Assembly: GCF_900187365.1 (NCBI RefSeq)
Contig: NZ_FYDG01000004.1
Span: 186,001 to 250,000, forward strand
Source of the DNA: Rhodoblastus acidophilus
Lineage (GTDB): Bacteria; Pseudomonadota; Alphaproteobacteria; Rhizobiales; Beijerinckiaceae
Reading direction: 5' to 3'
DNA: 64,000 nt
In this document: positions 29,677 to 50,578 of the stretch, piece after piece
Numbering within the stretch: position 1 is the first letter of the stretch
Layout: each line of letters starts with the position of its first letter
The notes under the pieces: model-generated
Told to the model about the DNA's origin: nothing
What the model saw: only the letters and a program-made list of their open reading frames with translations
Databases searched by the model: none
Made by a program: the position numbers and the translations under genes

Positions 29677-30402
29677 ATGACGACCACAGTCAACACAGAC
29701 ACAAGGTTCGACGACCCGCTGGACGAATTCTGGCGCGAACCGCTCCCTTCGGTCGCATCGCGCAAATTCAGCATGAAAGCGCGCAGGACAGGCCGCTCCA
29801 CCATACCGGCAATCGTGGGAATTCCGCGCTATGTGCGGAAAGTCCAATGTGAAAGCCTCCTGGAGAGCAATTGTGCGATAGTGCTGCTGGCGCGCCGCGA
29901 CGTCATCAATCTGGTGGAGCAGCTGCCGCCAGTCGCCTATTTCGACGAAGTCGAGCAAAAGTGGAAAAAGCACCACTTCGACTTCCTGGCCCAACTCACT
30001 GACGGTTCAAGGATCGCTATCGCTGTGCGATCAGCTGCGCGTGCGCAAGAGGTCCGCGCCGTCGTCGAGGCTATAGCGGCGCAGGGCTGCGCGCTCGCCG
30101 ACGGATACGCCGTCGTCACCGACGCCGATTTGCCCATAAATCTGGTCAGGAATTCAGAGCTCATCCTGGCGGTGCGGCGCGACCATGACCGGTCAGCCGA
30201 CGAGAAAATCCGCGACATCGTCACAACGTTACACGGCACGACAACCATCGAAATGCTGGTTGCCGCCAGCGGGCTGGAGGGCAAGGGATTCCGCGCCGTT
30301 GTCCGCATGATCGACGAGGGCGAACTCGAGATCGCCCGCGACACACTGATCGACTACCCAGCGACCGTGCGCCGCCCCGCAACTGGGAGGGCGGCAGCAT
30401 GA
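29677..30402 (+). CDS. tnsA: TnsA-like endonuclease of E1 (catalytic Lys replaced by Arg)
   Basis: In Tn7, TnsA cuts the 5' ends of the transposon so that it moves by cut-and-paste. This 241-residue protein has the TnsA N-terminal fold: CESLLESN (E60 or E63), VEQLPPV, HHFDFLAQ (D102) and then AIAVRSA. The position held by the catalytic lysine in TnsA, and in the E2 copy (MVKPA), is R118 here. The nuclease may be weak or dead. The start is ATG 29677 with GGGGG six nt before it. Its stop overlaps tniA (ATGA). Confidence 0.85.
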   Translation: MTTTVNTDTRFDDPLDEFWREPLPSVASRKFSMKARRTGRSTIPAIVGIPRYVRKVQCESLLESNCAIVLLARRDVINLVEQLPPVAYFDEVEQKWKKHHFDFLAQLTDGSRIAIAVRSAARAQEVRAVVEAIAAQGCALADGYAVVTDADLPINLVRNSELILAVRRDHDRSADEKIRDIVTTLHGTTTIEMLVAASGLEGKGFRAVVRMIDEGELEIARDTLIDYPATVRRPATGRAAA

Positions 30403-32678: not shown

Positions 32679-32689
32679 AAGGAAACATA

Positions 32690-33706
32690 ATGGACCAGAA
32701 TACACCAGATCCAGATCGAATACGCACGATCATGCGCGACCTGCGCATGAAATACATCAAATCACCGCGCGACGAAAAGCTGCAGGAAATATTTCAGTGG
32801 CTGGTCGGGCGCGGCAGCCTTCGCCAGATGCCCAATCAAATAGCCAACGGCGCGAGACTCGCGGAGGGACGCGCCGTGGCGGTGTCCGGCTACAGCGGCG
32901 AAGGGAAAACAACGGCGATCGGACGCATATTTGCCAACAACCCGAACCTGCCGGACTTCGGACAGCCGTCCTGCAAGGTCGTCTGCGTCACCACCCCAGC
33001 GCCCTGCACGCTCAAGACGCTTGGGCGCGCCATCCTGCGAGCGCTGGGATATCCGCTCAACGCGGACAGAAAGGAACATGAAATCTGGGAGATGGTCCAC
33101 GCCCGACTGGCGCAGATGGGAACGCAGATCATCTTCATAGACGAGCTTCAAAACGTGACGTCCATCGCCAAGAAGGACGAGGCGACACGCATCAGAGACA
33201 CGCTGAAATCGCTGATGAACTCGCCGGAACATCCGGTCTGCCTGATGTTCTCGGGCTTGCCGGAAATCGAACGGTTTCTCACGGAAGACGAACAGGTCGC
33301 ACGGCGCACGCGCTTCGTGAAATTCGAAACCATCAACGAATCCAATGCGGCAGTCATCAAGGCCATCATCAAGAGCTACACGAACGTTGCAGCTCTGGCC
33401 GTCACCTTCGGCGACAAGCTCGCAGAGCGGCTCATCCACGCCTCCAACGGAAGGTTCGGCGTCATCATCGAGATGACGCTCGAGGCGATCGAAATTGCCC
33501 TCGAGGCCGGCGCAACGGAACTGACGCGCGAGCACTTCGCCACCGCCTATGTATGGCGGACAGGAAATGCCGCGCCAGCGAACCCCTTCGTCGCTGACAA
33601 CTGGCGAGCGATCAATTCCCGCCGTGTGCACCTCAGAGATGTGTTTGACGGCCACGAGGATCAGGAAGCGCAAGCCACCAAGAAAACTTCCAGAAGAAGA
33701 AGATGA
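32690..33706 (+). CDS. tniB: TniB/TnsC transposition ATPase of E1
   Basis: This AAA+ regulator links target choice to the transposase and confers target immunity. The 338-residue protein has Walker A GYSGEGKT (67-74), Walker B IIFIDELQ (D151, E152) and a sensor-type region near LMFSGLPEIE. The start is ATG 32690 with AAAGGA seven nt upstream; this is 11 nt after the tniA stop. The basic C-terminus (KKTSRRRR) may touch DNA. Confidence 0.93.
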   Translation: MDQNTPDPDRIRTIMRDLRMKYIKSPRDEKLQEIFQWLVGRGSLRQMPNQIANGARLAEGRAVAVSGYSGEGKTTAIGRIFANNPNLPDFGQPSCKVVCVTTPAPCTLKTLGRAILRALGYPLNADRKEHEIWEMVHARLAQMGTQIIFIDELQNVTSIAKKDEATRIRDTLKSLMNSPEHPVCLMFSGLPEIERFLTEDEQVARRTRFVKFETINESNAAVIKAIIKSYTNVAALAVTFGDKLAERLIHASNGRFGVIIEMTLEAIEIALEAGATELTREHFATAYVWRTGNAAPANPFVADNWRAINSRRVHLRDVFDGHEDQEAQATKKTSRRRR

Positions 33707-33710
33707 GACA

Positions 33711-35561
33711 ATGCAACAGCTTTGCCCAACACTGACGCCCGGAATCGACGAAACACCAATAAGCTTCGCGTCGCGCTTGGCGCACCTTCACAATATCCAC
33801 CATCTGCGCCGCTTCTGCACAGACCTCGGCCTGCCCTTTCAGGGCATCGCCGACGGCGACCCCGTCGCCATAGGAATGCTCGCAAGGGTTTCTGGAGCCG
33901 ACGAACAGCAGCTTCAGGCCAACGCCTTCGTGCGCGACGGTACGGATTACCGCATCCGCGGCCAAAAGCTGATCAAATCCACCTGCGCGCTGACCCACAT
34001 CCGGATCTGCCCGCTATGTGCGGCGGAAGACATCAGGACTTTCGGTCTGGCGCCCGAGATCGCCATCTACGACCGCCTGCAATGGAAAATCACGTCGATC
34101 CGCACCTGCGTGAACCATAGCGTCGCGTTGGAACACCTCGGCGTGGAGGACAAGACCAACTCCGTGCACCATTTCGCCGGCGCCATAGCATCTCGGCTCC
34201 CCCAGATCAGCGCGCTCGAACCGATCGCCCGCGACGCATCCGGGCTCGAACATTACCTGGTCGGACGCCTCAACGGCCTGGCCAGCGCCATACCCTTCCT
34301 GGACAGCATGGAGTTCCACGCCGCGGCAAAAACCTGTGAGATGATCGGCGCCATCGCGACCAGCGGACGACATGTGGCCGTGAGCAGCTTCTCGGAAGAC
34401 GACTGGCGAAGCGCGGGCCAGGCAGGATTTGAAATCGCCAAGGGCGGAGAAGATTCCATCCGCGCCTTCCTGCAGGAATTGCAGCGCACCTTCACGCCGA
34501 GAGCTGGCGTCGCCCATGACGGACCCCAGGGCGTATACGACCAACTGTACAAATGGGCGGAGTTTTCAGCCCAAAGCAGCGACTTCGACGCCTTCCGCGC
34601 AATTTTCCACCAGCACATTGTCAGAACCATGCCGATCAGCGCTGGCGAAACCCTGCTGGGCAGGATCGTGGAAGAACGCCAGGTGCATTCAATCAGGACG
34701 GCGGCGAAGAAATTTCAGGTCCACCCCAAGCGCCTGAGAAAGATCCTCGCCATCAAGGGGCTGATCCCAGCAAACCACGAAGGGCTTCACGACAACCACC
34801 TCATGATGGACGCCGAAGCAGTCCAGAAGCTCTACGATGACGGCGTGCTCACCGGACTGACACGAAAGGACACGGAGGACTATATCGGCGCTGGACGTGT
34901 CCAGACAAAGGTCATGGTCGACGCCGGCATCCTCGTTCCGGCGATTGCGACCAGCGACATAGGCGACCAGGGCGGATGGAGCTCATTCCCGACCAGGACT
35001 CTCGACGCCTTCCTCGCGCGGCTGATGCAAGACGCCGTGCCTGTGGCAACCGCAGGCGAAGAACAATTCGACATTCCAGCGGCGGCGAAACGCGCCAACT
35101 GCTCAGCCGCCGAAATCGTCCGCATGATCCTGGACAGGAAGCTGAACTGGGTGGGCAGACTGACGACGAAGGACAAATATATGTCCGTCCTCGTCGACCT
35201 GCAGGAAGTCAAGGCGAAGACGCAAAACCTGCAGCCCCTCGACGGCCTCACGGCGCAACAGGTTCAGCAGGCGCTGAAGACGACACACGCAGTCGTACGC
35301 GCGCTGATCGACGAGGGAATTCTGCGACAGGAGAAACACATCCATCCAGTCAACCGCTGCCCAGTCATGATTACGCCCCACGCCGAATTCAAATCATTTC
35401 AGGAGACCTACGTATCGCTGACTGAATTGGCAAAAAAAGCAGACACCCACCCACTGACATTGAAAAAGCTCTTGTATGAAATGGATATTGACCCAGCGAT
35501 CGACCCAAAAAGGGTTCACGCGACCTTCTATGAAAGAAGCAAAGTACAGGAGCATGAGTGA
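33711..35561 (+). CDS. tniQ: TniQ/TnsD target-selection protein of E1
   Basis: TniQ/TnsD proteins choose the target; TnsD binds a fixed chromosomal site. This 616-residue protein has the TniQ zinc ligands C100, C103, C133 and H136 (CPLC...CVNH) and the lead PISFASRLAHLH. The long part after 350 has repeated HTH-like units (for example AAKRANCSAAEIVRMILDRK), suited to reading a DNA site. As E1 sits just behind nrdJ, this protein is the best candidate to bind the nrdJ 3' end. The start is ATG 33711, 4 nt after tniB. Confidence 0.9.
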   Translation: MQQLCPTLTPGIDETPISFASRLAHLHNIHHLRRFCTDLGLPFQGIADGDPVAIGMLARVSGADEQQLQANAFVRDGTDYRIRGQKLIKSTCALTHIRICPLCAAEDIRTFGLAPEIAIYDRLQWKITSIRTCVNHSVALEHLGVEDKTNSVHHFAGAIASRLPQISALEPIARDASGLEHYLVGRLNGLASAIPFLDSMEFHAAAKTCEMIGAIATSGRHVAVSSFSEDDWRSAGQAGFEIAKGGEDSIRAFLQELQRTFTPRAGVAHDGPQGVYDQLYKWAEFSAQSSDFDAFRAIFHQHIVRTMPISAGETLLGRIVEERQVHSIRTAAKKFQVHPKRLRKILAIKGLIPANHEGLHDNHLMMDAEAVQKLYDDGVLTGLTRKDTEDYIGAGRVQTKVMVDAGILVPAIATSDIGDQGGWSSFPTRTLDAFLARLMQDAVPVATAGEEQFDIPAAAKRANCSAAEIVRMILDRKLNWVGRLTTKDKYMSVLVDLQEVKAKTQNLQPLDGLTAQQVQQALKTTHAVVRALIDEGILRQEKHIHPVNRCPVMITPHAEFKSFQETYVSLTELAKKADTHPLTLKKLLYEMDIDPAIDPKRVHATFYERSKVQEHE

Positions 35562-37189: not shown

Positions 37190-37633
37190 TATTAACGACT
37201 AACAATTTCAGCGGGAAGGAACAGGATCCGCGCGAACTACTCTCAAAACGCAAACATTTCAAAAAGCAGCGAAGACAGAATAACCAGTCGAATGTATAAT
37301 GTACGACCATCGCGATCCTGATTTACACTATTGTACCAAGCGGTACCGCCATGACGCTGACGCTGCGTCACTTATCTCAAGCGGAGCCGCTGAAGGGCGC
37401 AGCGACTGAATCCAATGAGCTAGACTAAAGCGCGCCAACGACAAAGATCCACCAGCGCGAGCCCCACATGAACGAGTGAATCGCCTGCGCAGGAAATTTT
37501 AGCCTCATTGCCCCAGGAAAACATACCTAATTGTGAACTTTTTCGCTTCAGCTCGGCTTGAAACGCGCTATCATTTTTTGCGCCTCAGCCGCGCCAAGGC
37601 TTGATTCAAAAGACATAATTGCGAGGTAAAACA
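37190..37633. other. Gene-free gap with small hairpins upstream of the TrlF gene
   Basis: No gene is seen in these 444 bases. Three short symmetric units sit together: GCGGTACCGC (37340-37349), TGACGC/GCGTCA (37352-37370) and AGCGG/CCGCT (37380-37391). They may be remnants of a regulatory or structured RNA. Confidence 0.4.
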
Positions 37634-40600
37634 ATGTATTCCAGGGGATCGGAGTGGCGCGAATGGGATTTGCACATTCATACACCCGCATCATTCCACT
37701 GGAATGGTGAGCATTTTGGAGCCGACGCTGCCCGGAACGCTCAGTTGGTCGACGAGATGATTGGCGCGCTGAACGATGCGCGGCCAATTGCATTTTCGAT
37801 AATGGATTATTGGAACTTCGAAGGATGGTTCGCCCTACAAAGGCGTCGGCGGGAGCAAGGTTCTCCAGAGCTAACAAAGACCGTCTTTCCTGGAATAGAG
37901 CTACGACTCGCCGCGCCTATTGAAGGGCGCCTCAATGCGCACGTTCTCTTCTCAGACAAGATTAGCGACCAGCATCTAAAGGATTTCCTATCGCGTTTAA
38001 AGTTAGAGCTGACCAACCAGCCACTTTCCCGTGACGCGCTTATAGGATATGCGCGGCAAGTCGGAGACGATATATTAGCTACACATGGTTTTGACAAAAG
38101 CACAATCATCGGAAACGAGGCCGAAGCATACAAAGCTGGGTGCACCATTGCCGAGATAAACGTTGATTCCTACAAGGAGGCAATCCGCCTCGTGCCCGAC
38201 TCGCAGGCAGTCGGTTTCATGCCCTTCTCGACCAATGACGGGCTTCAATCCGTCAAGTGGTCAAGGCACTACGCATACGTACTCGGGCTATTCCAATGTT
38301 CGCCAATCTTCGAAACCCGAAAGCCTGAGCAATGGGCGGCCTTCGCGGGCATAGAGACGCAAGAGAACAAAGCCTGGTTCGCCAATTTTCAGGCCGCCCT
38401 CAAGGGAATTCCACGACTGGCGGTTTCGGGTAGCGACGCGCACTGTTTCCGAGGAAATGGCACCAATGACAAACGCGGCTATGGCGATTTTCCGTCGGGG
38501 AAGCGCACATGGATCAAGGCCGACCCAACCTGGAAGGGCTTGCTGCAAGCGCTCAAGGAACCTGCGAAGCGTTCATACATCGGGGAGCAGCCGCCAAAGC
38601 TGGACCGCATCAAGCAGAACAAAACTTTTTATATCGACTGCGTAAGCGTTCGGAAAGCTGACAACAGCACGATTCAAGATGCATGGCTTGATGGAGTAAA
38701 AATCCCACTTAATCCAGACTTGGTTGCAATCATTGGAAACAAGGGAAGCGGAAAGAGCGCCCTCGCAGATATCATCGCATTGCTCGGAAACTCACAGCAG
38801 AGCATTCACTTCTCCTTTTTGAAGAAGGATCGTTTCCGCGGGAAGGCCGGAGAGCCAGCCAGACAGTTCATAGGTGAGCTATCATGGCTCGCCGGTGATC
38901 CCAGCACCATGCCTCTAGCAGATGACCCATCGGTAGACCGGGTCGAACTTGTGCGATACATCCCGCAAGGTCGTTTCGAGGCCCTGTGCAACGATCATGT
39001 GTCAGGAAAAACCGACCGGTTTGAAAAGGAACTCCGAGGCGTCATCTTTTCACACGTACCTGCCAGCATCCGCTTGGACGCACTTGATTTCGATCAACTC
39101 ATTGAAAAGCAAGAGAGTGTCTTCCGAGCTCGGATCAACGAGCTTCGAAAGTCGTTGCGGGCCCTCAACCAGCAGATCGTGGAAACAGAAGACCAACTTC
39201 ACCCAAAGGTCAAAAAGAACATCGAAGAACTGATCAGACTAAAGATAGGCGAATACGAAGGGCAAAAGGCGTTAGAGCCTACTGCGGTTAATCCACCTGC
39301 GGAAGAGCTAAGCCCAGAACAAGCCGTGGCTAGTTCACGACTTGCAGAAATATCCGCACGACTGGAAGAGCTTGAGGTTGGATACAAGGCCACCAATCCG
39401 GCGCACCAGCTGATTAAAAAGAAACAAAGGTCTATCAGGAGCATCAATGATAGGCTTGCGTTGGTCGAAAGACAATTTAAAGAATTTACAAATGAGATCG
39501 CCAACGACCTGAGCATTATTGGCGTTAACACGAGCGATTTAATCACGCTTTCAATAAACCGAACGCTACTTAATAGCCATCAAGAAGCGCTCAGTTTGGA
39601 AGACGAAACTATATCTAAAACCGTTAAGGATATTGGCGAAGAGCAATTCAAGTTGATCGAGGAGCGAAAGTGTCTCGCGGAAAAGTTGAACGAACCACAG
39701 AAGCAATATCAAGTTTATGTACAGGCAGTGAAAGAATGGAAAGCTGCCTTGGAGGCAATAGACGGTTCAGAAACTGAGCCGGATAGCCTTAGAGGTCTGC
39801 GGAGGCGCCTGACTCAGATAGACAAACTGGGAGACTTCCTTACAGACAAAAAGGCAGAAAGGCTGGAGATTACACGACAACTTTTCGGCGTTCTCGACGA
39901 ACAGCGCAAAGCGCGCGAAGAGCTATTCGCGCCATTGCAGGAGTTGATTCAAACCAACTCCCTCATCCGCGATCATTATAAGCTCCAATTCCAATCTAAG
40001 CTTCTAGGCTCGCCAGAAACGGTCGCCTCACAGCTATTCAGTGGAATTAAACAACTTAGAGGTGAAATCCGCGGCGAAGATGAAAGCTTTGCAGCCGTGA
40101 GAACACGGTTTGAGAAATACCAGTTCGACTCTGCCGACGACTGCGTCGCTTTCGCATCTGAAATAGCCACACTCCTTGAGGAAAGCGCTGACGGGCAGAA
40201 CCATATTCCCGGAATACGCACCATCATGCGCAAGGACAAAGAGCCGGCAGACGTATATAGCTACATCTTTGGCCTACAATATCTAGAACCAAAATACACA
40301 TTGCTCTTCCAGGATACGCAAATTGAGCAGCTGTCACCTGGGCAGCGCGGTGCTTTGCTTCTGATTTTCTACCTGCTGGTCGACAAAGGACGCAATCCCA
40401 TTGTGCTGGATCAGCCAGAAGAAAACCTCGACAACGAGACCGTCGTAAGCCTGCTGGTTCCGGTTCTGAACGAGGCAAAGAAAACACGCCAAATCATCAT
40501 GGTGACCCACAATCCGAACCTCGCAGTCGTGTGCGACGCCGAACAAATCATCCATGCAACATTCGATCGGAAAAATGGCGCACGAATCTCATACCATTCC

Positions 40601-40696
40601 GGCTCAATCGAAAATCAGACAATAAACAAAGCTGTCGTTGATGTGCTTGAAGGAACCAAAATCGCCTTCGACAACAGAGGGCAGAAATATCACTGA
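37634..40696 (+). CDS. TrlF-type PHP-SMC ATPase
   Basis: This 1020-residue protein joins an N-terminal PHP phosphoesterase (WDLHIHTPAS, H14 and H16; a later SGSDAHCF) to an SMC/Rad50-like ATPase. The ATPase has Walker A IGNKGSGKSA near 375, long coiled coils (about 480-800), signature LSPGQRGALLL and Walker B PIVLDQPEENLDNE near 930, then THNPNLA. TrlF-family proteins are found in defence islands and are thought to sense or cut nucleic acid; that role is inference. The start is ATG 37634 with GAGGT upstream. It is the largest right-hand cargo gene of E1. Confidence 0.85.
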   Translation: MYSRGSEWREWDLHIHTPASFHWNGEHFGADAARNAQLVDEMIGALNDARPIAFSIMDYWNFEGWFALQRRRREQGSPELTKTVFPGIELRLAAPIEGRLNAHVLFSDKISDQHLKDFLSRLKLELTNQPLSRDALIGYARQVGDDILATHGFDKSTIIGNEAEAYKAGCTIAEINVDSYKEAIRLVPDSQAVGFMPFSTNDGLQSVKWSRHYAYVLGLFQCSPIFETRKPEQWAAFAGIETQENKAWFANFQAALKGIPRLAVSGSDAHCFRGNGTNDKRGYGDFPSGKRTWIKADPTWKGLLQALKEPAKRSYIGEQPPKLDRIKQNKTFYIDCVSVRKADNSTIQDAWLDGVKIPLNPDLVAIIGNKGSGKSALADIIALLGNSQQSIHFSFLKKDRFRGKAGEPARQFIGELSWLAGDPSTMPLADDPSVDRVELVRYIPQGRFEALCNDHVSGKTDRFEKELRGVIFSHVPASIRLDALDFDQLIEKQESVFRARINELRKSLRALNQQIVETEDQLHPKVKKNIEELIRLKIGEYEGQKALEPTAVNPPAEELSPEQAVASSRLAEISARLEELEVGYKATNPAHQLIKKKQRSIRSINDRLALVERQFKEFTNEIANDLSIIGVNTSDLITLSINRTLLNSHQEALSLEDETISKTVKDIGEEQFKLIEERKCLAEKLNEPQKQYQVYVQAVKEWKAALEAIDGSETEPDSLRGLRRRLTQIDKLGDFLTDKKAERLEITRQLFGVLDEQRKAREELFAPLQELIQTNSLIRDHYKLQFQSKLLGSPETVASQLFSGIKQLRGEIRGEDESFAAVRTRFEKYQFDSADDCVAFASEIATLLEESADGQNHIPGIRTIMRKDKEPADVYSYIFGLQYLEPKYTLLFQDTQIEQLSPGQRGALLLIFYLLVDKGRNPIVLDQPEENLDNETVVSLLVPVLNEAKKTRQIIMVTHNPNLAVVCDAEQIIHATFDRKNGARISYHSGSIENQTINKAVVDVLEGTKIAFDNRGQKYH

Positions 40697-40962: not shown

Positions 40963-41003
40963 GACTCAATCCAGCAGATCGCCCTGCTGGATTATTTTTT
41001 CAA

Positions 41004-41110
41004 TTTAGGGAAAAACCAGATTCAAATTCAGGGAAAAACCGAGTCCGATCGGAATGGTTAAACCTCTGATTTATGATTGCGATGCAGGAAAAACCAAACT
41101 CAAAGCGACA
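41004..41110. repeat. E1 right end with transposase-binding repeats
   Basis: In inverted orientation to the left end. The inner site 41004-41028 differs from the inner left site at one of 25 positions. A second site adjoins it at 41029-41052, and the outermost (41087-41110) ends in GCGACA. The common core is GGAAAAACC. Confidence 0.9.
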
Positions 41111-41115
41111 CCAAT
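41111..41115. repeat. E1 target-site duplication, right copy (CCAAT)
   Basis: Identical to 18827-18831 and directly next to the E1 ACA end. Its last two bases also form the start of the E2 duplication ATGTC. Confidence 0.95.
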
Positions 41116-41118
41116 GTC
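41114..41118. repeat. E2 target-site duplication, left copy (ATGTC)
   Basis: ATGTC directly precedes the TGT end of E2 and recurs directly after its ACA end at 49500-49504. Confidence 0.93.
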
Positions 41119-41192
41119 TGTGGGCAGAACGATAATTCCTCCGCAATGGAAGCATATTCCCACGCAGACGGAATGAATATTCTGCTCACACA
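41119..41192. repeat. E2 left end with three 22-bp repeats
   Basis: Sites begin at 41127 (GAACGATAATTCC), 41149 (GAAGCATATTCC) and 41171 (GAATGAATATTC), exactly 22 bp apart. The first two also share CGCA after the ATTCC core. This is a typical transposase-binding array. Confidence 0.85.
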
Positions 41193-41210
41193 GTAAAAAC
41201 AATGAATTAG

Positions 41211-41410
41211 GCGACATGCGAGCGAGGTGTTCCCCGCTCGCAGCAGCGGGCGGCTGGCAATGCCAGTCGCCCAAGTCGCAGAAGGAACAAAGTAAGATCG
41301 ATTTGGCCGTCGCTCATGCAGCGATGGCAAAAGAAAACCGAGGCCGACAGAGTCGACCTCGGTTACCGCGGGAAGGCCAAAGGCCGCGCGGGGCGAAGAG
41401 GCGAACCTCT
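41211..41410 (+). ncRNA. Candidate structured RNA upstream of the YTGPGGGx-repeat gene
   Basis: A three-way junction is visible: GCGAC (41211)/GTCGC (41275) encloses TGCGAGCG/CGCTCGCA (41217-41242) and GGGCGGCTGGCA/TGCCAGTCGCCC (41248-41272). Further stems follow: TTTGGCCGTCGCT/AGCGATGGCAAA (41302-41331), AACCGAGG/CCTCGGTT (41336-41364), CCGCG..GGCC/GGCC..CGCGG (41366-41391) and AGAGG/CCTCT (41397-41410). So many strong stems in 200 nt suggest a folded RNA or leader. The second stem and the AGGAACAAAG that follows recur behind the gene. The strand is assumed from the gene. Confidence 0.5.
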
Positions 41411-41492
41411 CCTGTATCGGCAAAATCAGGTTAGCGGGATTCGTGCCTCCGAGTCGATGAGCCTTTGGCATCATCACAGGAGAAATTTCAAA

Positions 41493-41906
41493 ATGGCATG
41501 GCCACGCAACCTTTACACTGGACCGGGCGGTGGAGCCTACACCGGCCCGGGAGGAGGTCTGTACACTGGACCGGGTGGTGGAGCTTACACTGGACCGGGA
41601 GGCGGCATGTATACTGGTCCCGGCGGAGGAATGTACGCGGGGCCGGGTGGAGGAATTTACTCCGGCCCCGGCGGCGGCCTTTATACGGGTCCGGGCGGCG
41701 GTCTCTACACAGGTCCCGGCGGTGGCCTTTATACAGGACCGGGAGGAGGGCTTTATACTGGTCCCGGCGGCGGTATGTACAATGGACCGGGTGACTATAA
41801 AGCGAAGACCCCGCCATGGTATGTGTTGGTCGCCGTACTTCGCCAGAAAGGCATGCACAAATACGCCGACCTCATCGAGAAATATCTCAAAGGGCGGAAG
41901 GCATAA
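41493..41906 (+). CDS. YTGPGGGx octapeptide-repeat protein
   Basis: This 137-residue protein has MAWPRNL, then eleven tandem copies of YTGPGGGx (x is mostly L, A or M; two copies read YAGPGGG and YSGPGGG) and a partial YNGPG. A 37-residue, probably helical tail follows (KTPPWYVLVAVLRQKGMHKY...). Codons vary freely between copies, so the peptide pattern, not the DNA repeat, is being kept. AGGAG lies 9 nt before the ATG. Gly/Pro/Tyr repeats suggest a flexible or fibrous array with a binding tail. I know no function. It is the main cargo of E2 and lies between two similar folded RNA-like elements. Confidence 0.7.
   Translation: MAWPRNLYTGPGGGAYTGPGGGLYTGPGGGAYTGPGGGMYTGPGGGMYAGPGGGIYSGPGGGLYTGPGGGLYTGPGGGLYTGPGGGLYTGPGGGMYNGPGDYKAKTPPWYVLVAVLRQKGMHKYADLIEKYLKGRKA
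41514..41792 (+). repeat. 24-bp tandem repeats encoding YTGPGGGx
   Basis: Eleven full 24-bp units and one partial. Synonymous positions differ widely between units (TAC/TAT, GGC/GGA/GGT/GGG, CCG/CCC), so this is not a fresh slippage array. Confidence 0.9.
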
Positions 41907-41921
41907 GGCCGAAGTAAAGGA

Positions 41922-41990
41922 AAGCGGAAATCGCTTCCGCTTGCGGCAAACCGGGTGGCTGGCAATGTCAGCCGCCCGAGTGAGCAGGAA
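41922..41990 (+). ncRNA. Second copy of the folded element, behind the repeat gene
   Basis: A perfect 8-bp hairpin AAGCGGAA/TTCCGCTT (41922-41942) precedes GGGTGGCTGGCA/TGTCAGCCGCCC (41953-41977) and CAGGAACAAAG. The last two parts copy the element at 41248-41292, with changes in the stem. The rest of the gap up to tnsA (41991-42782) holds a terminator-like hairpin and a palindrome but no convincing gene. Confidence 0.45.
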
Positions 41991-42328
41991 CAAAGAGGTG
42001 TTGAAGCGATCGCAACTTTTAGCGAAGATTTGGCGGCTGAGTTGGAGCTTCAACAAGGCGTCTGAGAGGTCTAACCCACGGGAATAGCGCCAGAAAACTC
42101 CACGTCAACACGGCCTGGATTTAGTTCTTGCCAAAGTTCATGCTGTGTTCTAAACTGAACAAATGCGAAACATGCAGCTCATAGGCGTCGAGCCGGAATC
42201 TGAGGCGACTTCGATCGCCCAGGCGGCTCCGTGCGCCCTTCCCGGAGTCTGCAAGACGACCTGATGTCGGGAGGGCGCCAGCGCGGTCCCCTCCCATGCA
42301 AAATCTCGCCAGCGATGTCGTGTTGGAA

Positions 42329-42358
42329 CCTGCCGGATGCTCCGTTCGGCGGGTTTTT
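42329..42358 (+). terminator. Terminator-like hairpin in E2
   Basis: CCTGCCG (42329-42335) and CGGCGGG (42347-42353) form a stem followed by TTTTT. It may end a transcript from the repeat gene or a small RNA in 41910-42330. Further on, GGGACGTCCC (42591-42600) is a 10-bp palindrome about 180 nt before tnsA and a possible operator. Confidence 0.55.
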
Positions 42359-42782
42359 CGTGTCGTTTCAGCAACGCGGTCTTGGCAATTCAAGCGATTT
42401 TGGCGGCAGCTGAAAATTTTTTCGATTCCTCGCCAGACCAATAGAATCCGGACGCCGCGGTCACAGTCATGGTCAAGCTGGAGTTCCGATCGACTCGCAT
42501 CTCGCCGCTGGCTGTTGCAACGTGAGCTTGTCAACAGCGAATCACCCCAGCCGCAACAGAGGCCGCCTTGAACTAGACCAGAAATGAAAAGGGACGTCCC
42601 GAACTTCGACCTTCGGAGCGTCCCCAATCTCTTCAAACCGCCCGCCGAATCCTACCAAGACAAAACGGGCGACTCTCTGCATCCCGGCTTCCGCCGAGTG
42701 GGATGATCTTGCTTGCGTCGACCCGAAAACGCAAGAACAAAGATCCTCCTCCTTGCGGCGCCGGTCAAACGGACCGACGCGA

Positions 42783-43511
42783 ATGTCTCCTTTACCAAGC
42801 AGCGCCGACTTGGACGCCGACAACGGCGCCTTCCGGTCGCCCGCGCCGTCGAGCGCCTCGCGCCTGCCGCCGAAGCCGTCGGAGAACCAGCGATTTTCCG
42901 GGCGGGTCCGCTTTGTCGCCGGTCTCGATCCGCACGTCGTTCACTGCGAGTCCATCCTCGAATGGAAGGCGGCGCTCGTCTTGCTCGCCATGCCCGACGC
43001 CTTGGATATATTCGAGCAGCCGCCGGCGGTCGAATACGTCGACCAGCATGGCGAGATCCATCACCACACTTTCGATTTCATGCTGCATCTGCGCGACGGA
43101 ACCCGGCTCGCCATCATGGTCAAGCCGGCGGAAATCGCCGCTCGGAAAGGAATTTACGATCTCGTCAAGCTGATCGCGCTTCAGGTTTCGATGGATTTCG
43201 CCGACGGCGTGCTGCTGATCACCGACGAGGACTGCGACCGGGATACGGTCCACGACGCCGTCCTGATCGACGACATGCGCCGCCACGACGACCCGGAGGC
43301 GGATGCCGCCGTTCGCGGCATCGTTGCGGACCTCGTCGGGGAGCCGACGATCCAATGCCTGGTTGACGCCACTGGCCTCGGCCCGCGCGCGTTCGGCGCC
43401 GTCGTGCGTCTGATCGGCGACGGCGTGCTTCAGGTGATGAACTCGCGGCGCATCCGCCACGGCGCCCGTGTGCGTCGGACCGGCGCCCCGTTCAGGGATT
43501 CGCCGCCATGA
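42783..43511 (+). CDS. tnsA: TnsA-like endonuclease of E2
   Basis: This 242-residue protein is homologous to the E1 TnsA. All expected catalytic positions are there: CESILEWK (E56 or E60), HTFDFMLH (D98) and MVKPA (K114). It should therefore cut the 5' ends and allow cut-and-paste movement. The start is ATG 42783; the frame is open ten codons further upstream. The stop overlaps tniA (ATGA). Confidence 0.87.
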   Translation: MSPLPSSADLDADNGAFRSPAPSSASRLPPKPSENQRFSGRVRFVAGLDPHVVHCESILEWKAALVLLAMPDALDIFEQPPAVEYVDQHGEIHHHTFDFMLHLRDGTRLAIMVKPAEIAARKGIYDLVKLIALQVSMDFADGVLLITDEDCDRDTVHDAVLIDDMRRHDDPEADAAVRGIVADLVGEPTIQCLVDATGLGPRAFGAVVRLIGDGVLQVMNSRRIRHGARVRRTGAPFRDSPP

Positions 43512-45688
43512 ACGTGCATTCCCCCGGCGGCTCCGCGCCCGTTCGCATCTGGAAATTCGACAAGGACGACCTGATCGGCATCGGCAGGCATGACTTTTCC
43601 CTCGTCGAGTCGACGCCGGAAGGGCACGTTCTCGCGCGCCTCGACAACCCGTCGATCACGCAGAATGTCTCCCACGCCGACATCGAGCGCTGGCGCGGAA
43701 CCACCGGATTCCGCCACGTCCCCAACCACTTCTCGGCGGAGAAGCAGAAGGCGCTCGCCAAGGGCGACATCTCCTATCTTTCCGACCTGCCCGCCAAGGT
43801 GCAGTCCACGATCCTGTGGAAGTGGGAGTTCTGTCGGCGCTTCCTCGAAATGGAGCAATTGAAGGCGGCAAGCCGCTCGGACGACGGTCTTGGCCGGGCC
43901 ATCGACGCCATCCATGCGGTCGTGTCGAAGATGGACATCGGCAGGAAGATTGTGCCTGAGAAGAAGAACAGGCTGGGCATCGTCATGGCCGAGGCGACTG
44001 TCGTCGAGCGCAAGAAGCCTTGCGCCGCGACCGTGCGCGACTGGCTGATCAGGCTCGAAGGCTACGGCTTCGACCTGCGGGTTTTGCGCGACGGTCGCTA
44101 CAGGAGCGGCAACAGGAACGGTCTCGACCCCGACGTCAAGGCGTTGCTCGACAACGCCATCAATGGCGTCTGCGGCGCGACCGACGAGCGCCGCGTTCCG
44201 GTCGCGAGAATCGTCGAAAATCTCGCCGTCGCGCTTAGGAAGGAGAACGCGAACAGGGCGTCTGACGACCAGCTGTCGCGCCCCTGCGACAAGACGATCT
44301 CGAACCACGCCAGAAAACTCCCACAGTTCCTGCGCTATGCGGGGCGGCACGGCATCGACGCCGCGAGGAAGCGCTATCCCGCGAACTCGTCGGGCATCGA
44401 CGTCACGCGCCCGCTCCAGCGCGTCGAGATCGACGAGTGGCGCGTGCCCCTGCACGTTCTCCTGACGTGGACCGGCGCATGGAACGACCTGACCGACAAG
44501 AAAAAGAAGAAGTTGAAGCGGGTTCGCGTGTGGGTCTGCGTCGCCATTGACGTGGCGACCCGTTGCATTCTCGGCATGCGTCTCAGCGAGACCGTGGCTT
44601 CCACCAACTCCATGGCGGTGCTGGAGATGATGGTCGGCGACAAGACCGACATGGCGCTCGCCGTCGGCGCGAAGACGCCGTGGGACATGTTCGGGCGCCC
44701 GCACCAGATCGCCAGCGACTGGGGCGGATCGCTGGTCTCGCGGCGCGTCGTGGCTGCGATCATGGACCTTCAGGTCGCCTCGTTGCAGCCGCCGCGTGGC
44801 TGTCCGAGCCTGCGCGCACACATCGAGCGCGTCTTCAGGACTGTCGGAACGCAGCTGATTTCCCGCTTCACCGGGCAGACCTTCGCCAACGTTGTCGCCA
44901 AGGCCGGATACGACAGCGAGAAGCGCGCCAGCCTGACCGTTGCGGAACTTTGCCGCTGCCTCGTTCTGTACGTGGTCGACGTCTATCACAACCTGCCGCA
45001 CGACGGGTTGGGCGGCGAGACGCCGCGCGAGGCTTGGCTGCGCCTGACCAAGAATTTTCCTATCGCGCCACCGCCCGACATGGACGCCGCACGCGCGATC
45101 TTCGGCGAGCATCTCGCCAAGCCGCTCGGCCCGAATGGCGTCGAGTTCGCCGGCATCCCCTACCAGTCGCCGGAATTGCAGCAGCTCTTCCGCGACAAGG
45201 GCAAGATCGACGTGGAGATGCGCGTCCACCTGAAGGACTTGCGCCGCGCCAGCGTGCTGATCGACGGCGCGTGGCGCCCGGCGCCATGCATAATCTTCGA
45301 CGAGGACAGGCTGAAGCAGTCTCTGTCGCTCGGCCAATGGAAGGCCGTCGCCGGCAAGCTGAACCGGGAATATCCCGGCGGCAGGGGCTTGGACAACGAC
45401 ATCGTCCTCAACGCCATCAAGGAGATCCAGCGCGTCAGCGAGGACGCTGTCAGGCTCCGGGGAATCGGCTCCACCATCCCCAGCGAGAAGGCCATCGCTC
45501 GCGCCGAAAGGGACATCATGCTCGGCTTCACCATGCCGCCCGCCGACGCCGACTGGCCTGATCGCGAGCCCGTCGCACCGAAGGATTTCAGGTCGCGCGT
45601 CGTGCCGACCGGAAGCGGCGGTGCGCCTTCGCCTGCCGCGCCGAGTACCGGCGCCTCCAGCCGCACCATCAGGACCGAGAAGGACTAG
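43508..45688 (+). CDS. tniA: TniA/TnsB transposase of E2
   Basis: This 726-residue DDE transposase has the core residues D309 (EIDEWR), D404 (ASDWGG) and E440 (AHIERVF), all intact. N-terminal DNA-binding and C-terminal beta-barrel regions match the E1 protein in order, but the sequences are far apart. It should bind the 22-bp GAANNATATTCC-type repeats at the E2 ends. It overlaps tnsA by 4 nt and is followed 2 nt later by tniB. Confidence 0.95.
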   Translation: MNVHSPGGSAPVRIWKFDKDDLIGIGRHDFSLVESTPEGHVLARLDNPSITQNVSHADIERWRGTTGFRHVPNHFSAEKQKALAKGDISYLSDLPAKVQSTILWKWEFCRRFLEMEQLKAASRSDDGLGRAIDAIHAVVSKMDIGRKIVPEKKNRLGIVMAEATVVERKKPCAATVRDWLIRLEGYGFDLRVLRDGRYRSGNRNGLDPDVKALLDNAINGVCGATDERRVPVARIVENLAVALRKENANRASDDQLSRPCDKTISNHARKLPQFLRYAGRHGIDAARKRYPANSSGIDVTRPLQRVEIDEWRVPLHVLLTWTGAWNDLTDKKKKKLKRVRVWVCVAIDVATRCILGMRLSETVASTNSMAVLEMMVGDKTDMALAVGAKTPWDMFGRPHQIASDWGGSLVSRRVVAAIMDLQVASLQPPRGCPSLRAHIERVFRTVGTQLISRFTGQTFANVVAKAGYDSEKRASLTVAELCRCLVLYVVDVYHNLPHDGLGGETPREAWLRLTKNFPIAPPPDMDAARAIFGEHLAKPLGPNGVEFAGIPYQSPELQQLFRDKGKIDVEMRVHLKDLRRASVLIDGAWRPAPCIIFDEDRLKQSLSLGQWKAVAGKLNREYPGGRGLDNDIVLNAIKEIQRVSEDAVRLRGIGSTIPSEKAIARAERDIMLGFTMPPADADWPDREPVAPKDFRSRVVPTGSGGAPSPAAPSTGASSRTIRTEKD

Positions 45689-45690
45689 CC

Positions 45691-46785
45691 ATGCCCGACG
45701 ACCAGAACACCCAAGGCAAGCCGGACACGCTGGCCCTTCTTAGCCTCTCGCAGTCCGAGGACGACATGAGGCGGTTGGGCGTGCTCGCCGACGTCTATTC
45801 CCTCTACTTCGCCTTCGGCCATCGTGACGACCCCTTGAGGGCCGAACTGGACCGCATGATCGGGCGCCTTCTGATGCGAATCTCCGGTCTTCTGCCGCCA
45901 GAGGCCGCCGACAGGTTGGACACGAGATGCCTGGTTCTGACGGGCGCTTCCGGCGCGGGCAAGAGCGCGGCTCTGGGGCGCATGTTCCTCAAGCACCCGT
46001 CGTTCCCCGGATTCGGCGTCGCCGGTTCGGGATGCCCAGCCGTCAGGGTGCGGGTCCGGGGCGGCTGCACCCACGGCAGCCTCGCGCGCGCCCTGCTCCG
46101 CGCCCTCGACTATCCGATCATCGTCGCGAGGAAGGACGCCGAGACCCTGTGGGAGATGGCGCGCGAGCGCGTCCGAATGATGGACGTTCGGGTGATCTAT
46201 TTCGACGAGTTCCAGAACGTGATCGAAACCGCCAACGTCGACGAGGTCCAGAAGATGCTGAATAGCCTCAAGACCTTCCTGAACCACGAAACCCACCCGG
46301 TCCTGCTGGTCCTCTCCGGCCTGCCCTCAATCGTTCCGTTTCTAGAAATCGACACGCAGGTCTTCCGGCGCAGCGTGTTCATCCGGTTCCAGCCGCTCGA
46401 TGCTGACGACCTTCCGTTGCTGTCCAAGATCGTCGGCGATCTCGCCAAGGCGGCCAATTTGCGCGTGGACATCCCGAAGATGGCCGGATTTCTGCCGCGC
46501 CTGATGCATGCCTCTCTGTTCCAACTCGGCACCTCCGTCGAACTCGCCTGCGAGGCGGCGGAACAGGCGTTGATGGTTGGAGGCGATACGCTGGAAGTCG
46601 GCCATTTCGCCGCCGGCTTCGCGCGCCGCACCGGAAACGCCGACGAGGCCAACCCCTTCCTCGCCAAGGACTACCACCTGATCGACTGCTCCCGCGTCCA
46701 CCGGAAGGCGGTCATCGCCCCGGACGATGACGACGAGATGGACAAGCGCCGCCGGATGCGCCGGAAGATGCGAGCGACGAAGTGA
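45691..46785 (+). CDS. tniB: TniB/TnsC transposition ATPase of E2
   Basis: This 364-residue AAA+ protein has Walker A GASGAGKS (85-92) and Walker B VIYFDEFQ (D172, E173). It starts 2 nt after the tniA stop and overlaps tniQ by 4 nt (GTGA), so the four genes are one tightly coupled operon. The C-terminus is strongly basic (KRRRMRRKMR). Confidence 0.93.
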   Translation: MPDDQNTQGKPDTLALLSLSQSEDDMRRLGVLADVYSLYFAFGHRDDPLRAELDRMIGRLLMRISGLLPPEAADRLDTRCLVLTGASGAGKSAALGRMFLKHPSFPGFGVAGSGCPAVRVRVRGGCTHGSLARALLRALDYPIIVARKDAETLWEMARERVRMMDVRVIYFDEFQNVIETANVDEVQKMLNSLKTFLNHETHPVLLVLSGLPSIVPFLEIDTQVFRRSVFIRFQPLDADDLPLLSKIVGDLAKAANLRVDIPKMAGFLPRLMHASLFQLGTSVELACEAAEQALMVGGDTLEVGHFAAGFARRTGNADEANPFLAKDYHLIDCSRVHRKAVIAPDDDDEMDKRRRMRRKMRATK

Positions 46786-48620
46786 CCGTCGGCAAGCTCC
46801 ATCCGCGCGTGCCCCTCGGGCGCGACGAGTCGGCGACATCGTTCCTGTCGCGGCTGGCGCGGTGCAACGGCGTAGACTCCGCTCGCAGGCTCTGTCTCGA
46901 CGTGGGGCTGGATTTTCAGGGCGTGGTCGACGGGCGCGGCGACGCCCTGTCGGCGCTGGCTTGGATGGCGGACGCGGCGCAGGAAAACGTCGTCGCCGGC
47001 GCCATCGTGCGCGAGGGAGACGCCATTTTTCGGCTGCGGGACGAAAGGCTGCTGAAGCCCGCCCTGCGCCGGGACAAGCTTCACGTTTGCCCGGCCTGCC
47101 TGAGTGACGACATCGCGGCATCAGGCCGCGCGCCGGAGGTTGCCGCCTATGGGCGGGTCCATTGGCTTCTGGGCGCGATCCGCACCTGCCCCGTACACGA
47201 GATGGCGCTGGTCGATGCCGTTGCCGGCGCCACTCCCAGCAAGCTGCACGACTTCGCGCTGCTGATGGCGCCGGCGGTTGCGGACCTCGACGGTCTGGCC
47301 GAACACGCGGCGCGTCGTGCGCCGTCCTCCCTCGAAACCTATCTCCTCGACCGGCTGGCAGGCGTCGTGGGCAGGTCTCCATGGCTCGACGGTCTGGAAT
47401 TCTATGCCGCCGCCAAGACTTGCGAGATGGTCGGCGCCGTCGCCGTTCATGGGCGCACGCCGAACTTGAAGCTCCTGACCGACGACGAGTGGCGCGAGGC
47501 TGGCGCCATCGGCTTCGGGATTGCGGCGGGCGGCGAGACGAGCATTCGCGAGTTCCTCGCCGACCTTCAGGCGACGTTCTCCTATGGGCGCGGCGGAAAC
47601 GATGGGCCGCAGGCCACTTTCGGGCGGCTCTTTCAGTGGATTGCCTTCGGCGCCGAGGACACCTCCTTCGACCCGGTGCGCGACGTGGTGCGGCGCCATG
47701 TCTGCGAGACGACCCCGGTCGGCCCCGGCGATGTCGTTCTCGGCCAGCCGGTCGAGCGCCGCCGCATTCATTCGATCCGTTCCGCGTCTCTGGAGATCGG
47801 CGCGCATCCGAAGCGCCTCCGCAAGCTGCTCGCCGCCAAGGCGCTGATCGCCGACGACCATCAGAGCAGGCCGGACAACCTCGTCCTGTTCGACGCCGAA
47901 GCCGCGCGCGACGCAATGGAGGCCGCCGTCGGACTGTCATTGAAGGAGGTCGAGAGCTACCTCAACGCCGGGCGCGTGCAGGCGAGACTGCTGGCCGAGC
48001 ACGGCTTCATCAGGCCTCTCGTGGCGGCGGGAGCGCCGGGAATCGGCGAAAACGCATTTTCCAGGGCGGAACTCGACGCGTTCCTGGATCGCCTGCTCGA
48101 CGGGGCCGAGCCAATGGTCGAGGCGGTCGAGCCGATGGCGGACATTCCATGGGCGGCCAAGCGGGCGTGCTGCTCGGCAGCCGAGGTCGTCCGGCTGATC
48201 CTTGATCGTCGCCTTACTCGTGTTGGCCGTCTGGAGGGTGCCGGGGGCTACATGTCGGTCCTTGTCGATGTCGAGGAGATCAGGCGCCACGTCTGCGGCC
48301 CGGCGCTGGAGGGGCTGACGGGCCGCGACCTCATGCGCGAGTTGCGGACCAACAACCGCGTCGTCAGCGCCCTGATCGCCGCCGGGAAGCTGCGGGCGAC
48401 GCGGGCCGTGAACCCGGTCAACCGCTGCCCGGTCGATGTCGTTACGTGCGAGGAACTCGACAGGTTCAGGCGCGAGTATGTCTCGCTGACGGAGATGTCC
48501 GAGGCGCTTGGGCGCCACAGGCGCGGCGTGATCGCCATGATGGAGGAGCGCGGCGTCAGGCCCGCGCTCGACAGGGAGGCGTTCGGAGCAACGTTCTATC
48601 GGCGGGCGGAGGTGGAATGA
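46782..48620 (+). CDS. tniQ: TniQ/TnsD target-selection protein of E2
   Basis: This 612-residue protein starts at a GTG that overlaps the tniB stop. The zinc ligands are C103, C106, C136 and H139 (CPAC...CPVH). It has the same length and block order as the E1 TniQ, including the YAAAKTCEMVGA-like and AAKRACCSAAEVVRLILDRR units. Both elements sit at the same site behind nrdJ, so the parts shared by the two TniQ proteins should include the nrdJ-reading surface. Confidence 0.9.
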   Translation: MTVGKLHPRVPLGRDESATSFLSRLARCNGVDSARRLCLDVGLDFQGVVDGRGDALSALAWMADAAQENVVAGAIVREGDAIFRLRDERLLKPALRRDKLHVCPACLSDDIAASGRAPEVAAYGRVHWLLGAIRTCPVHEMALVDAVAGATPSKLHDFALLMAPAVADLDGLAEHAARRAPSSLETYLLDRLAGVVGRSPWLDGLEFYAAAKTCEMVGAVAVHGRTPNLKLLTDDEWREAGAIGFGIAAGGETSIREFLADLQATFSYGRGGNDGPQATFGRLFQWIAFGAEDTSFDPVRDVVRRHVCETTPVGPGDVVLGQPVERRRIHSIRSASLEIGAHPKRLRKLLAAKALIADDHQSRPDNLVLFDAEAARDAMEAAVGLSLKEVESYLNAGRVQARLLAEHGFIRPLVAAGAPGIGENAFSRAELDAFLDRLLDGAEPMVEAVEPMADIPWAAKRACCSAAEVVRLILDRRLTRVGRLEGAGGYMSVLVDVEEIRRHVCGPALEGLTGRDLMRELRTNNRVVSALIAAGKLRATRAVNPVNRCPVDVVTCEELDRFRREYVSLTEMSEALGRHRRGVIAMMEERGVRPALDREAFGATFYRRAEVE

Positions 48621-48733
48621 TCTGCACCCCATAGGCATTGACGTACAAGCGAACCGTGGCGAATGCGGCATCGCAGCGCGATCGCCCGCACCTTTACCGT
48701 TCAAGCTTTGACAACGATGGAAAACCGCACATT

Positions 48734-49063
48734 ATGACCGTCAAGGCGATGCGTAAGGTTCGCAGAAAGAAGGTGAAAAAAATGCTCAACGGAGCTGATA
48801 TCCAGTGGGAAGAACCCCATCAAGTAAAAAACCGGACATTTCAAATTGTCGTTTACATCGATCCGTCGCTTCCGAATTCAACCTGCGTTGAGGCATTCGA
48901 GAACGGAAAAGAAGTCATCTACACCCTGGCACCGGGCCTCTCCCAGCGTGAACGCCATCTGATAGATCACACCACAGGGTCTTCTTATTTCAAGAAATTC
49001 GGCACAGCTGGTCTGTTCGACTTGATCGAAGACATAAAATCGCGGCTCGATAAATACGCATAA
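48734..49063 (+). CDS. Small hypothetical protein of E2
   Basis: This 109-residue basic protein starts at ATG 48734 (MTVKAMRKVRRKKVKK). The frame is open back to a TTG at 48638, which would add 32 plausible residues, so the true start is unsure. The middle (FQIVVYIDPSLPNSTCVEAF) looks like a beta-rich fold, and the end is helical. I do not recognise it. It follows tniQ in the same direction. Confidence 0.5.
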   Translation: MTVKAMRKVRRKKVKKMLNGADIQWEEPHQVKNRTFQIVVYIDPSLPNSTCVEAFENGKEVIYTLAPGLSQRERHLIDHTTGSSYFKKFGTAGLFDLIEDIKSRLDKYA

Positions 49064-49135
49064 TCTCAACATAAAAGAGCGTTAAGGCGCATTTGTCGGA
49101 CGACACCCGCCAAAATATCTTATGCGTGCGCCGTT

Positions 49136-49294
49136 TCAGTAGCCCGACTGCGGGTTAAGCGGCGCCGCCTCGGCCACCAATGCGCTGACGCGGTTCTGTG
49201 CAGGCGGGCCATTTCCTATGATCTTGCTGGCGTAAAGTGCGGCACCGAGCACAAGGGCGCCAACAATGGCGATCTGAGTCATACGCATAGTCAT
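49136..49294 (-). CDS. Small single-helix membrane protein of E2
   Basis: This 52-residue protein has one hydrophobic helix (MTQIAIVGALVLGAALYAS) and a short tail. It starts at ATG 49292-49294 with GAGG upstream. It faces the end of the previous gene. The function is unknown. Confidence 0.4.
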   Translation of the reverse strand: MTMRMTQIAIVGALVLGAALYASKIIGNGPPAQNRVSALVAEAAPLNPQSGY

Positions 49295-49402
49295 CTGAGA
49301 CCTCTTCACGGCGCATAAACCACATCGGGCCGCAATGGTTGCGGCGCCGGTTGACGAGCGTTTGAGTTCAGGCTGCGCGCCGGACCTCCAATTCGCCATG
49401 GT

Positions 49403-49499
49403 CTTCGCAGAGAAATATTCGTTCTGTTTGCGAATGGATTAGCGGTCGGAAGAGGTCGAAAATTGACAGTTTTGCGTAGGTTTTTTCGTTCTGGCTACA
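49403..49499. repeat. E2 right end with transposase-binding repeats
   Basis: In inverted orientation to the left end. The outer site 49469-49491 reads GAACGAAAAAACCTACGCA on the minus strand, and the inner site 49403-49426 reads GAACGAATATTTCTCTGCG. They lie about 67 bp (three turns of 22) apart. The end is CTACA. Confidence 0.85.
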
Positions 49500-49504
49500 A
49501 TGTC
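49500..49504. repeat. E2 target-site duplication, right copy (ATGTC)
   Basis: Identical to 41114-41118 and directly next to the ACA end of E2. Its ATG is also the first codon of the ImmA/IrrE-like pseudogene. Confidence 0.93.
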
Positions 49505-50084
49505 AGAACCTATCGATCACCTGGTAAAGGCCGTCTTTGAAGACGACATAATTATACTCGCGAACAGTGTAAGGAAATCTCTTGGTCAAGAACACGAGCT
49601 TGCAATTTCACCGTTGCAAGCACTGCGATGGTTTGAAAGTATAGCAATACCACAAAAAGGGCTCCTAAAAGTGAACACCTTTAGCGCGCCGAAAGGAACG
49701 CCTCCGGCGCGCGTAAAATACGACCCGTTGCGAATGTTTATTGATTCAGACAGCTATCAATAAGCGAAAGACTATCGAGATCCAGACTCACATGAAATCA
49801 TTGCTCATGAAATTGGGCACATGCTTCTTCATGACAAAACAGCAAAAGCCTTTTCTGCTGCTGATGCCGAGCGGCTTCCATCAATTCCAAAAGAACAAAG
49901 CGCAGAATGGCAAGCTGACCGATTTTGCGATCATTATCTTCTACCAATCAAGTTTGTCGAATCATTAAATTTTGACGCCCATTTAATCGTCAATCAATGC
50001 AATGTACCGCACCGAATAGCTTTGCGTCAGATCATAAACGCACAACGTATACTCAAAGTCGGCACTTCAAATTATCAGACATAA
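49500..50084 (+). pseudogene. ImmA/IrrE-like metallopeptidase gene with a nonsense codon
   Basis: The frame from ATG 49500 runs to a TAA at 49761-49763 and then stays open to 50084. After the stop it encodes the zinc motif SHEIIAHEIGHMLLHDKTA and AEWQADRFCDHYLLP, as in ImmA/IrrE peptidases that cut repressors or regulators. One base change would restore a 194-residue protein. The start codon lies in the E2 target duplication. Its ribosome binding site was left at 18818 by the insertions, so the gene lost translation and probably then decayed. The sequence is AT-rich and foreign-looking. Confidence 0.8.
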
Positions 50085-50239
50085 AATACATAAATTTACC
50101 CACCCCCTTACAACTTCCATTTGAGACATCTTTTTCCAGAAAGAGACAAAAAAACATTAGAAAACCGCAAGACGGCACACTTCCTTCTCAAGGGAATACT
50201 AAAATAATGAAGACCCCCTTACTCAGATAGGGCGCCATC

Positions 50240-50388
50240 CCCTCTCCCCGCGAGCGGGGAGAGGGTTAGGGTGAGGGGGGCTCCGGCGCTCGCCTCGCCC
50301 CATCCACGTCCGCCCGCCAAACCGGCGCAGACCGCTCAAATCGCAGATCCCCCTCACCCCCGCCCTCTCCCCGCGCGCGGGGAGAGGG
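50240..50388. repeat. Pair of REP-type palindromes in inverted orientation
   Basis: Two copies of CCCTCTCCCCGC/GCGGGGAGAGGG (50240-50265 and 50363-50388), flanked by GGGTGAGGGGG on one side and CCCCCTCACCC on the other, so the unit as a whole is an inverted repeat. Such BIME-like units are dispersed in related genomes. A decayed copy is at 300-323. Confidence 0.8.
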
Positions 50389-50578
50389 TGCGCAAACGTC
50401 GCAAGGCTCGACGGGATTGATGGCGACACACCCGCTCATTGACGGCGAAGCGCACGCCTAATCAAAGCGCAGCCGACGCGCCGCCGCGTGGACGGCCTCT
50501 CGCCCCCTCCCAAACCCCGTCGCTCTGGAACACAACCACAGCGGCGCGCGTTGAAAAACAATAGTTTGGGAGGACTCT

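Follow-up and report, generated by a model that had tools for sequence, protein, structure and literature searches.

Two different, distantly related Tn7-like transposons, here termed E1 and E2, lie almost end to end behind the nrdJ gene in the window (the whole 64,000-nt stretch of Rhodoblastus acidophilus DNA that was analysed). Their closeness is likely due to a common attachment site behind nrdJ that has been filled more than once. The favoured reading, with a probability of roughly 0.75, is that both elements homed to the 3′ end of nrdJ, E2 first, and that E1 was not blocked by the ends of E2.

The two elements and their junction

E1 occupies positions 18832–41110 (22,279 bp; all features are on the forward strand unless noted). 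Its ends are TGTCG...CGACA, with TGTCGTTTTGAAC as the first bases, and it is flanked by a perfect 5-bp target site duplication, CCAAT, at 18827–18831 and 41111–41115. Repeats of the GGTTTTTCC type make up the left end (18832–18904), and the right end (41002–41110, reverse strand) displays three GGAAAAACC repeats, at 41009, 41032 and 41087. E2 occupies 41119–49499 (8,381 bp), with ends TGTGGGCAGAACGA...TCGTTCTGGCTACA and the right terminus ...TCTGGCTACA; its perfect 5-bp duplication, ATGTC, is at 41114–41118 and 49500–49504, and its left-end repeats (41119–41190) form an inverted repeat (41119–41139 and 41170–41190). The left and right terminal 80 bp are alike in each element (z 5.8 for E1 and 4.9 for E2, with 0 of 300 shuffles as good in either case). 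The end repeats of both are putative TnsB sites.

Between the E1 right end (...GCGACA, to 41110) and the start of E2 (TGTGGGCAG, 41119) is an 8-bp spacer, CCAATGTC (41111–41118). It is composed of the two duplications, CCAAT of E1 and ATGTC of E2, which overlap by AT at 41114–41115, so that three spacer bases on each side belong to a single duplication. The empty site, as reconstructed, is GAGCCC-CCAATGTC-AGAACC, directly 3′ of nrdJ. A first-pass annotation had placed only three target bases between the elements and had the facing TnsB arrays within about 120 bp. The near-abutting junction and the facing arrays are real, but the spacer is 8 bp long, the duplications share two bases, and the E1 right-end and E2 left-end arrays span ~190 bp in total, with their outermost repeats ~14–23 bp apart.

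Both elements carry the Tn7-like gene set tnsA, tnsB, tnsC and tniQ. In E1 these are a tnsA-like gene (29644–30402), tnsB (30399–32678), a tnsC of the TniB/AAA type (32660–33706; Pfam TniB 8e-21) and tniQ (33549–35561; Pfam TniQ 1e-16), which probably starts only at the ATG of position 33711, just past the end of tnsC, since the annotated open reading frame overlaps tnsC. In E2 they are tnsA (42753–43511; Pfam Tn7_TnsA-like_N 1e-4, 23.2 bits, below the cut-off of 26.5), tnsB (43508–45688), tnsC (TniB/AAA; 45691–46785; Pfam TniB 3e-18) and tniQ (46782–48620; Pfam TniQ 3e-16). E1 TnsB matches Pfam rve with 31 bits, just below the cut-off of 32.6, and Mu-transpos_C above cut-off. E1 TnsA and E2 TnsB have no Pfam match at 1e-3 and were recognised through their similarity to the partner element. 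Protein identity between E1 and E2 is 38% for TnsA, 29% for TnsB (~690 aa), 35–36% for TnsC and 42% for TniQ. Five acidic columns, which appear to include the catalytic triad, are invariant across 25 near-full-length TnsB sequences, those of E1 and E2 among them. A search of the window's own genome with E2 TnsB (E <= 0.001) gave two matches, E1 and E2, and no further ones. Both elements also show the TGT...ACA termini, repeated end sites and 5-bp duplication of Tn7-like transposons, and no Cas match was found among the part of their open reading frames scanned.

A closer relationship in TniQ than in TnsB was considered as a hallmark of the E1/E2 pair and rejected; the same is seen in 267 of 375 pairs and is a general trend, in which the E1/E2 gap ranks 18 of 375. 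When E1 is compared with contig C206 (L024) of G009, a genome of E1's genus, identity is 55% for TnsB, 50–53% for TnsC, 58% for TnsA and 35–37% for TniQ, and E1 is placed differently in the TnsB and TniQ trees, with modest support in the latter. The close TnsABC and distant TniQ, together with the discordant trees, thus suggest that the target selector may have been exchanged.

Other genes in and next to the two elements were also noted. E1 carries a type I restriction specificity subunit and a restriction subunit at 19261–23597; the specificity subunit is without its first ~70 residues, judged by the best PADLOC profile, and a modification subunit was not found among the E1 open reading frames scanned. 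Near the E1 right end (37619–40696) is a 1025-aa SMC/AAA-type ATPase with matches to defence ATPases, the best being Ppl (1e-20) over the last ~120 residues. An open reading frame in E2 (41493–41906) consists largely of YTGPGGG-like glycine-rich repeats and has no Pfam or PADLOC match at 1e-3. The right ATGTC duplication of E2 provides the ATG of an open reading frame at 49500–50150, with a HEIGH motif, ImmA/IrrE-like by eye, and an in-frame stop.

The site behind nrdJ

The nrdJ gene (14902–18816) encodes a class II (B12-dependent) ribonucleotide reductase (Pfam Ribonuc_red_2_N 7e-45, Ribonuc_red_lgC 3e-119), and its 3′ end would be the attachment site common to E1 and E2. An alignment of three TniQ proteins was used to scan 397 genomes of the same family. 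TniQ matches at E <= 1e-20 are found in 52 of these genomes, and nrdJ is found in 50 of the 52. Placement relative to nrdJ was scored for the 41 of 66 TniQ matches with at least 240 bits, the 25 under 240 bits being left out. Eighteen of the 41, E1 and E2 included, follow nrdJ on its own contig and strand at a distance of no more than 100 kb, and none is upstream of or opposite to nrdJ over the same distance. Five are farther off on the nrdJ contig (one, in G368, 177 kb downstream), 17 are on contigs other than that of nrdJ, where a positional link to nrdJ is unseen, and one is in a genome where nrdJ was not found. On L035 of Methylobacterium soli, the tns genes begin near base 6013, beyond an nrdJ that ends near 805.

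Element ends were sought as TG...CA ends 8–35 bp past the nrdJ stop, with an identical 5-bp duplication and a right end at most 6 kb behind TniQ, at a threshold of at least 13 of 24 matching end bases; 1,232 windows 150–1,500 bp downstream served as controls. The search took in 25 of the 52 TniQ genomes (G000 with E1 only) and left out 27, including G426 with its 0.4-kb TniQ remnant. A matching end pair, with the left end 14–23 bp past the nrdJ stop, is found in 14 of 25 element/nrdJ combinations against 8 of 1,232 controls. At the looser thresholds of 12 and 11 of 24 the controls rise to 31 and 69 of 1,232, with the 14 real pairs unchanged in number. The left-end distances are 14 bp in G298, 15 in E1 and G422, 18 in G348 and G250, 19 in G414, 20 in G392 and G394, 21 in G066, G399 and G362, 22 in G333, and 23 in G416 and G272. 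A fixed insertion place behind a conserved gene, a further Tn7-like trait, is thus displayed by these 14, E1 included, and E2 fits it at +18. No matching pair was found in the other 11 (G417, G360, G304, G207, G286, G276, G176, G318, G365, G387 and G009). The earlier account, in which unlike ends may be what allows the stacking of E1 and E2, had overlooked this shared site as the likely cause of their closeness.

TniQ genes 57–87 kb from nrdJ were considered as conserved synteny with another site. This was rejected, since eight of the nine are in large elements with one end at nrdJ and a matching one behind TniQ (G066, G416, G348, G392, G394, G422, G414 and G399; not G304). In G009 an E1-type left end (z 19.7) is found behind one of two nrdJ copies. 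These are C-terminal copies on different contigs (L113 and L114), with different sequence after each; the window's own genome likewise has two further partial NrdJ matches (contigs C52 and C42), 74–75% identical. A search of 60 genomes, its own included, with the E2 right flank (49500–50420) did not reveal an empty site of the species; among the matches listed, all those in other genomes are confined to the query from base 724 on, where there is a dispersed repeat.

Stacking, target immunity and order of insertion

In the proposed mechanism, the TniQ proteins of E1 and E2, by a presumed TnsD-type homing, would both recognise the nrdJ 3′ end and direct insertion some 14–23 bp past the stop codon. 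E2 would have arrived first, at +18. The site would have stayed open because insertion leaves nrdJ intact, and E1 would then have entered it at +15, between nrdJ and E2, displacing E2 and producing the overlapping duplications and the 8-bp spacer. The ends of E2 would have been no block to E1, most likely because E1 TnsB and TnsC do not recognise them. Between the facing ends, E1 right and E2 left, no likeness above chance level is seen (z 0.4, equalled by 118 of 300 shuffles); the left ends of the two elements resemble each other only weakly (z 1.8, 25 of 300). Absence of cross-immunity between E1 and E2 would be the natural reading, because the ends are unlike and identity is low in TnsB (29%) and TnsC (~35%).

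At ten junctions in the family, E1/E2 included, a right end is followed immediately by an array resembling a left end. Their spacers are 8 bp in E1/E2, G250 and G310, 7 bp in G394, G392, G335 (where the left end is uncertain) and contig 35 of G365, 9 bp in G414, 4 bp in G394b and 0 bp in G272. Left-end arrays behind elements in G333, G399 and G416 are weak or ambiguous and were not counted. The G250 spacer, CATCGATC (8 bp), combines the duplications CATCG and CGATC, again with an overlap of 2 bp; the outer element there is bounded on both sides, is 9.6 kb long and keeps only a TniQ remnant, and the proximal element is spread over two contigs. Within the sequence examined, tns sets in both partners are found only in E1/E2. 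The right end of the outer element was sought in G394, G392, G272, G414, G310 and G365 (G335 and G394b were left out) and was not found in the sequence examined. The outer elements of the eight stacks other than E1/E2 and G250 may be relics. G310 and G394b are two different species, but are not independent cases because their proximal elements are 99.9% identical over 26 kb. The G394b element is ~122 kb long, with the duplication TCTTT (G394:C3, about 2,258,500–2,380,800; the G310 copy is L059/L150–L152), and nrdJ was not found beside it within the 200 kb examined. This case, like the 11 combinations with no matching end pair and the 17 TniQ matches on other contigs, speaks against the proposed homing to nrdJ.

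Seven of the ten junctions are of the unlike type (G335 from direct comparison only) and three, G310, G365 and G394b, are of the same type. The facing ends in G310 are alike by direct comparison (z 9.3, 0 of 300 shuffles), with the elements 8 bp apart. The other nine junctions gave z −1.1 to 1.0 (G365 −1.1, G394b 1.0), a comparison that can miss likeness because the left and right ends of some types differ (G394: z −0.1). Ends were also typed by homology with 45 nrdJ flanks. The G394b outer end is best like G305 (z 11.8) and its proximal element is of the G305 type, and the G365 outer end is like G394 (z 34.9). By eye, the G365 proximal right end has 26 of 30 bases like those of G394, although related types have similar right ends. 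Both stacks are thus same-type by homology. Alike pairs among the nrdJ flanks amount to 32 of 259 within genus, 45 of 990 over all, and 18 of 105 in the genus with all three same-type stacks; since an evident end is lacking in some of the 45 flanks, the fractions are underestimates. In this small sample same-type neighbours are not seen to be depleted (3 of 10 junctions against 32 of 259 within-genus pairs).

It had been held that TniB-type immunity should forbid insertion near a related end, and that unlike ends may permit the stacking, with stacked elements of the same ends elsewhere as the observation that would speak against this. Such elements were looked for in the family and occur in G310 and, by homology, in G365 and G394b; the prohibition thus finds no support as a general principle. 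The role of unlike ends is plausible for E1/E2, where it fits the divergent ends and TnsB as well as known orthogonality, but it is not general. Since same-type stacks exist, unlike ends need not explain the admission of E1 and are not strictly required for stacking.

Immunity could instead be weak or one-sided in the family, such that protection might need more than a left end, stacking would need no more than a common site, and the end difference would be incidental. The three same-type junctions and their lack of depletion point this way. However, no outer right end was found in the sequence examined of G310 or G365, so these outer elements are possibly relics unable to protect, G310 and G394b share one element, and seven of ten junctions in a small sample are unlike. 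This alternative is entertained only tentatively. The wider generalisation, that the nrdJ-homing group has weak or one-end immunity and that its common site is filled repeatedly by insertions that abut or cut the last left end, whether the ends match or not, is considered unlikely.

The order in which the elements arrived also has to be considered. The E1/E2 junction is by itself compatible with either order, and no strain with only E1 or only E2 was found. Had E1 come first, with E2 later aimed at its far end or there by chance, CCAATGTC and both duplications would look identical. In that order, however, E2 would have inserted 22 kb away from nrdJ but would still match +18 of the empty site precisely when E1 is removed on paper; E1 is at +15, and both distances are within the 14–23 bp range. 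For this reason E2 is likely to have inserted first, and E1 to have followed, entering between nrdJ and E2. The outer element of G272 has the first 8 bases of its left end split by the nrdJ-proximal element, which is flanked by TGCGG; TGCGG plus the TGA on the nrdJ side complete the outer left end (TGATGCGGGACCCAAAG; compare TGAAGGCAGACCCAAAG of G422). Since the outer end is interrupted by the proximal element, the proximal element is the younger one in this relative, which also argues against E1 first, a reading that appears quite improbable. That E1 and E2 are one composite island moved as a unit, as their adjacency and the common orientation of their tns genes might suggest, is scarcely credible, given that E1 and E2 are each bounded by separate ends and a separate duplication and that the outermost flanks differ (CCAAT left, ATGTC right).

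Comparison with known systems

A literature search found no paper on Tn7-like elements at nrdJ, and among the matches listed the term "ribonucleotide reductase" is not used in Tn7-like papers. Tn7 islands are said to be stacked at attTn7, with several Tn7-like elements at one site, reportedly described by Parks and Peters in 2007. The nrdJ stacks differ in their site, and document overlapping duplications, polarity and same-type neighbours. Together they are a naturally occurring collection of stacks at one site, with both unlike and like end pairs, on which no paper was found; with these natural pairs, the reach of target immunity and its specificity could be tested. For relatives of Methylobacterium and Microvirga, they further supply a candidate insertion site, as well as transposase pairs that may be orthogonal.

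E1 and E2 share with Tn7 and Tn7-like elements that home by TnsD/TniQ, as presented in the available text of PMC11406308, the tnsABC and tniQ genes, the TGT/ACA ends, the 5-bp duplication and insertion immediately 3′ of a conserved gene, which is left intact. The known sites given there are glmS, tRNA and parE genes, whereas that of E1 and E2 is nrdJ. The same portion of text explains that immunity matters where the attachment site stays intact. According to the accessible part of PMC11702153, target immunity limits tandem insertions, yet these occur at a low level, and orthogonal CASTs are proposed as a way to circumvent immunity for consecutive insertions at one place. Ends unrelated to the other machinery would be invisible to it, such that a second insertion can adjoin the first, as is envisaged for E1 and E2. 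In contrast to the orthogonal CASTs proposed there, E1 and E2 are natural and appear to be protein-homing; no cas gene was seen among the open reading frames scanned, and their orthogonality is putative. Re-insertion was not detected for one CAST in the available sections of PMC12452197, and those of PMC6360697 add nothing on stacking. Neither "nrd" nor "ribonucleo" occurs in the main texts, as far as available, of PMC10293859 and PMC8649781. In the former (Faure et al. 2023), as far as its available text goes, target selector and transposition core are described as evolving as separable modules. E1 and the G009 element likewise share a core (TnsB 55%) but no close TniQ (35–37%).
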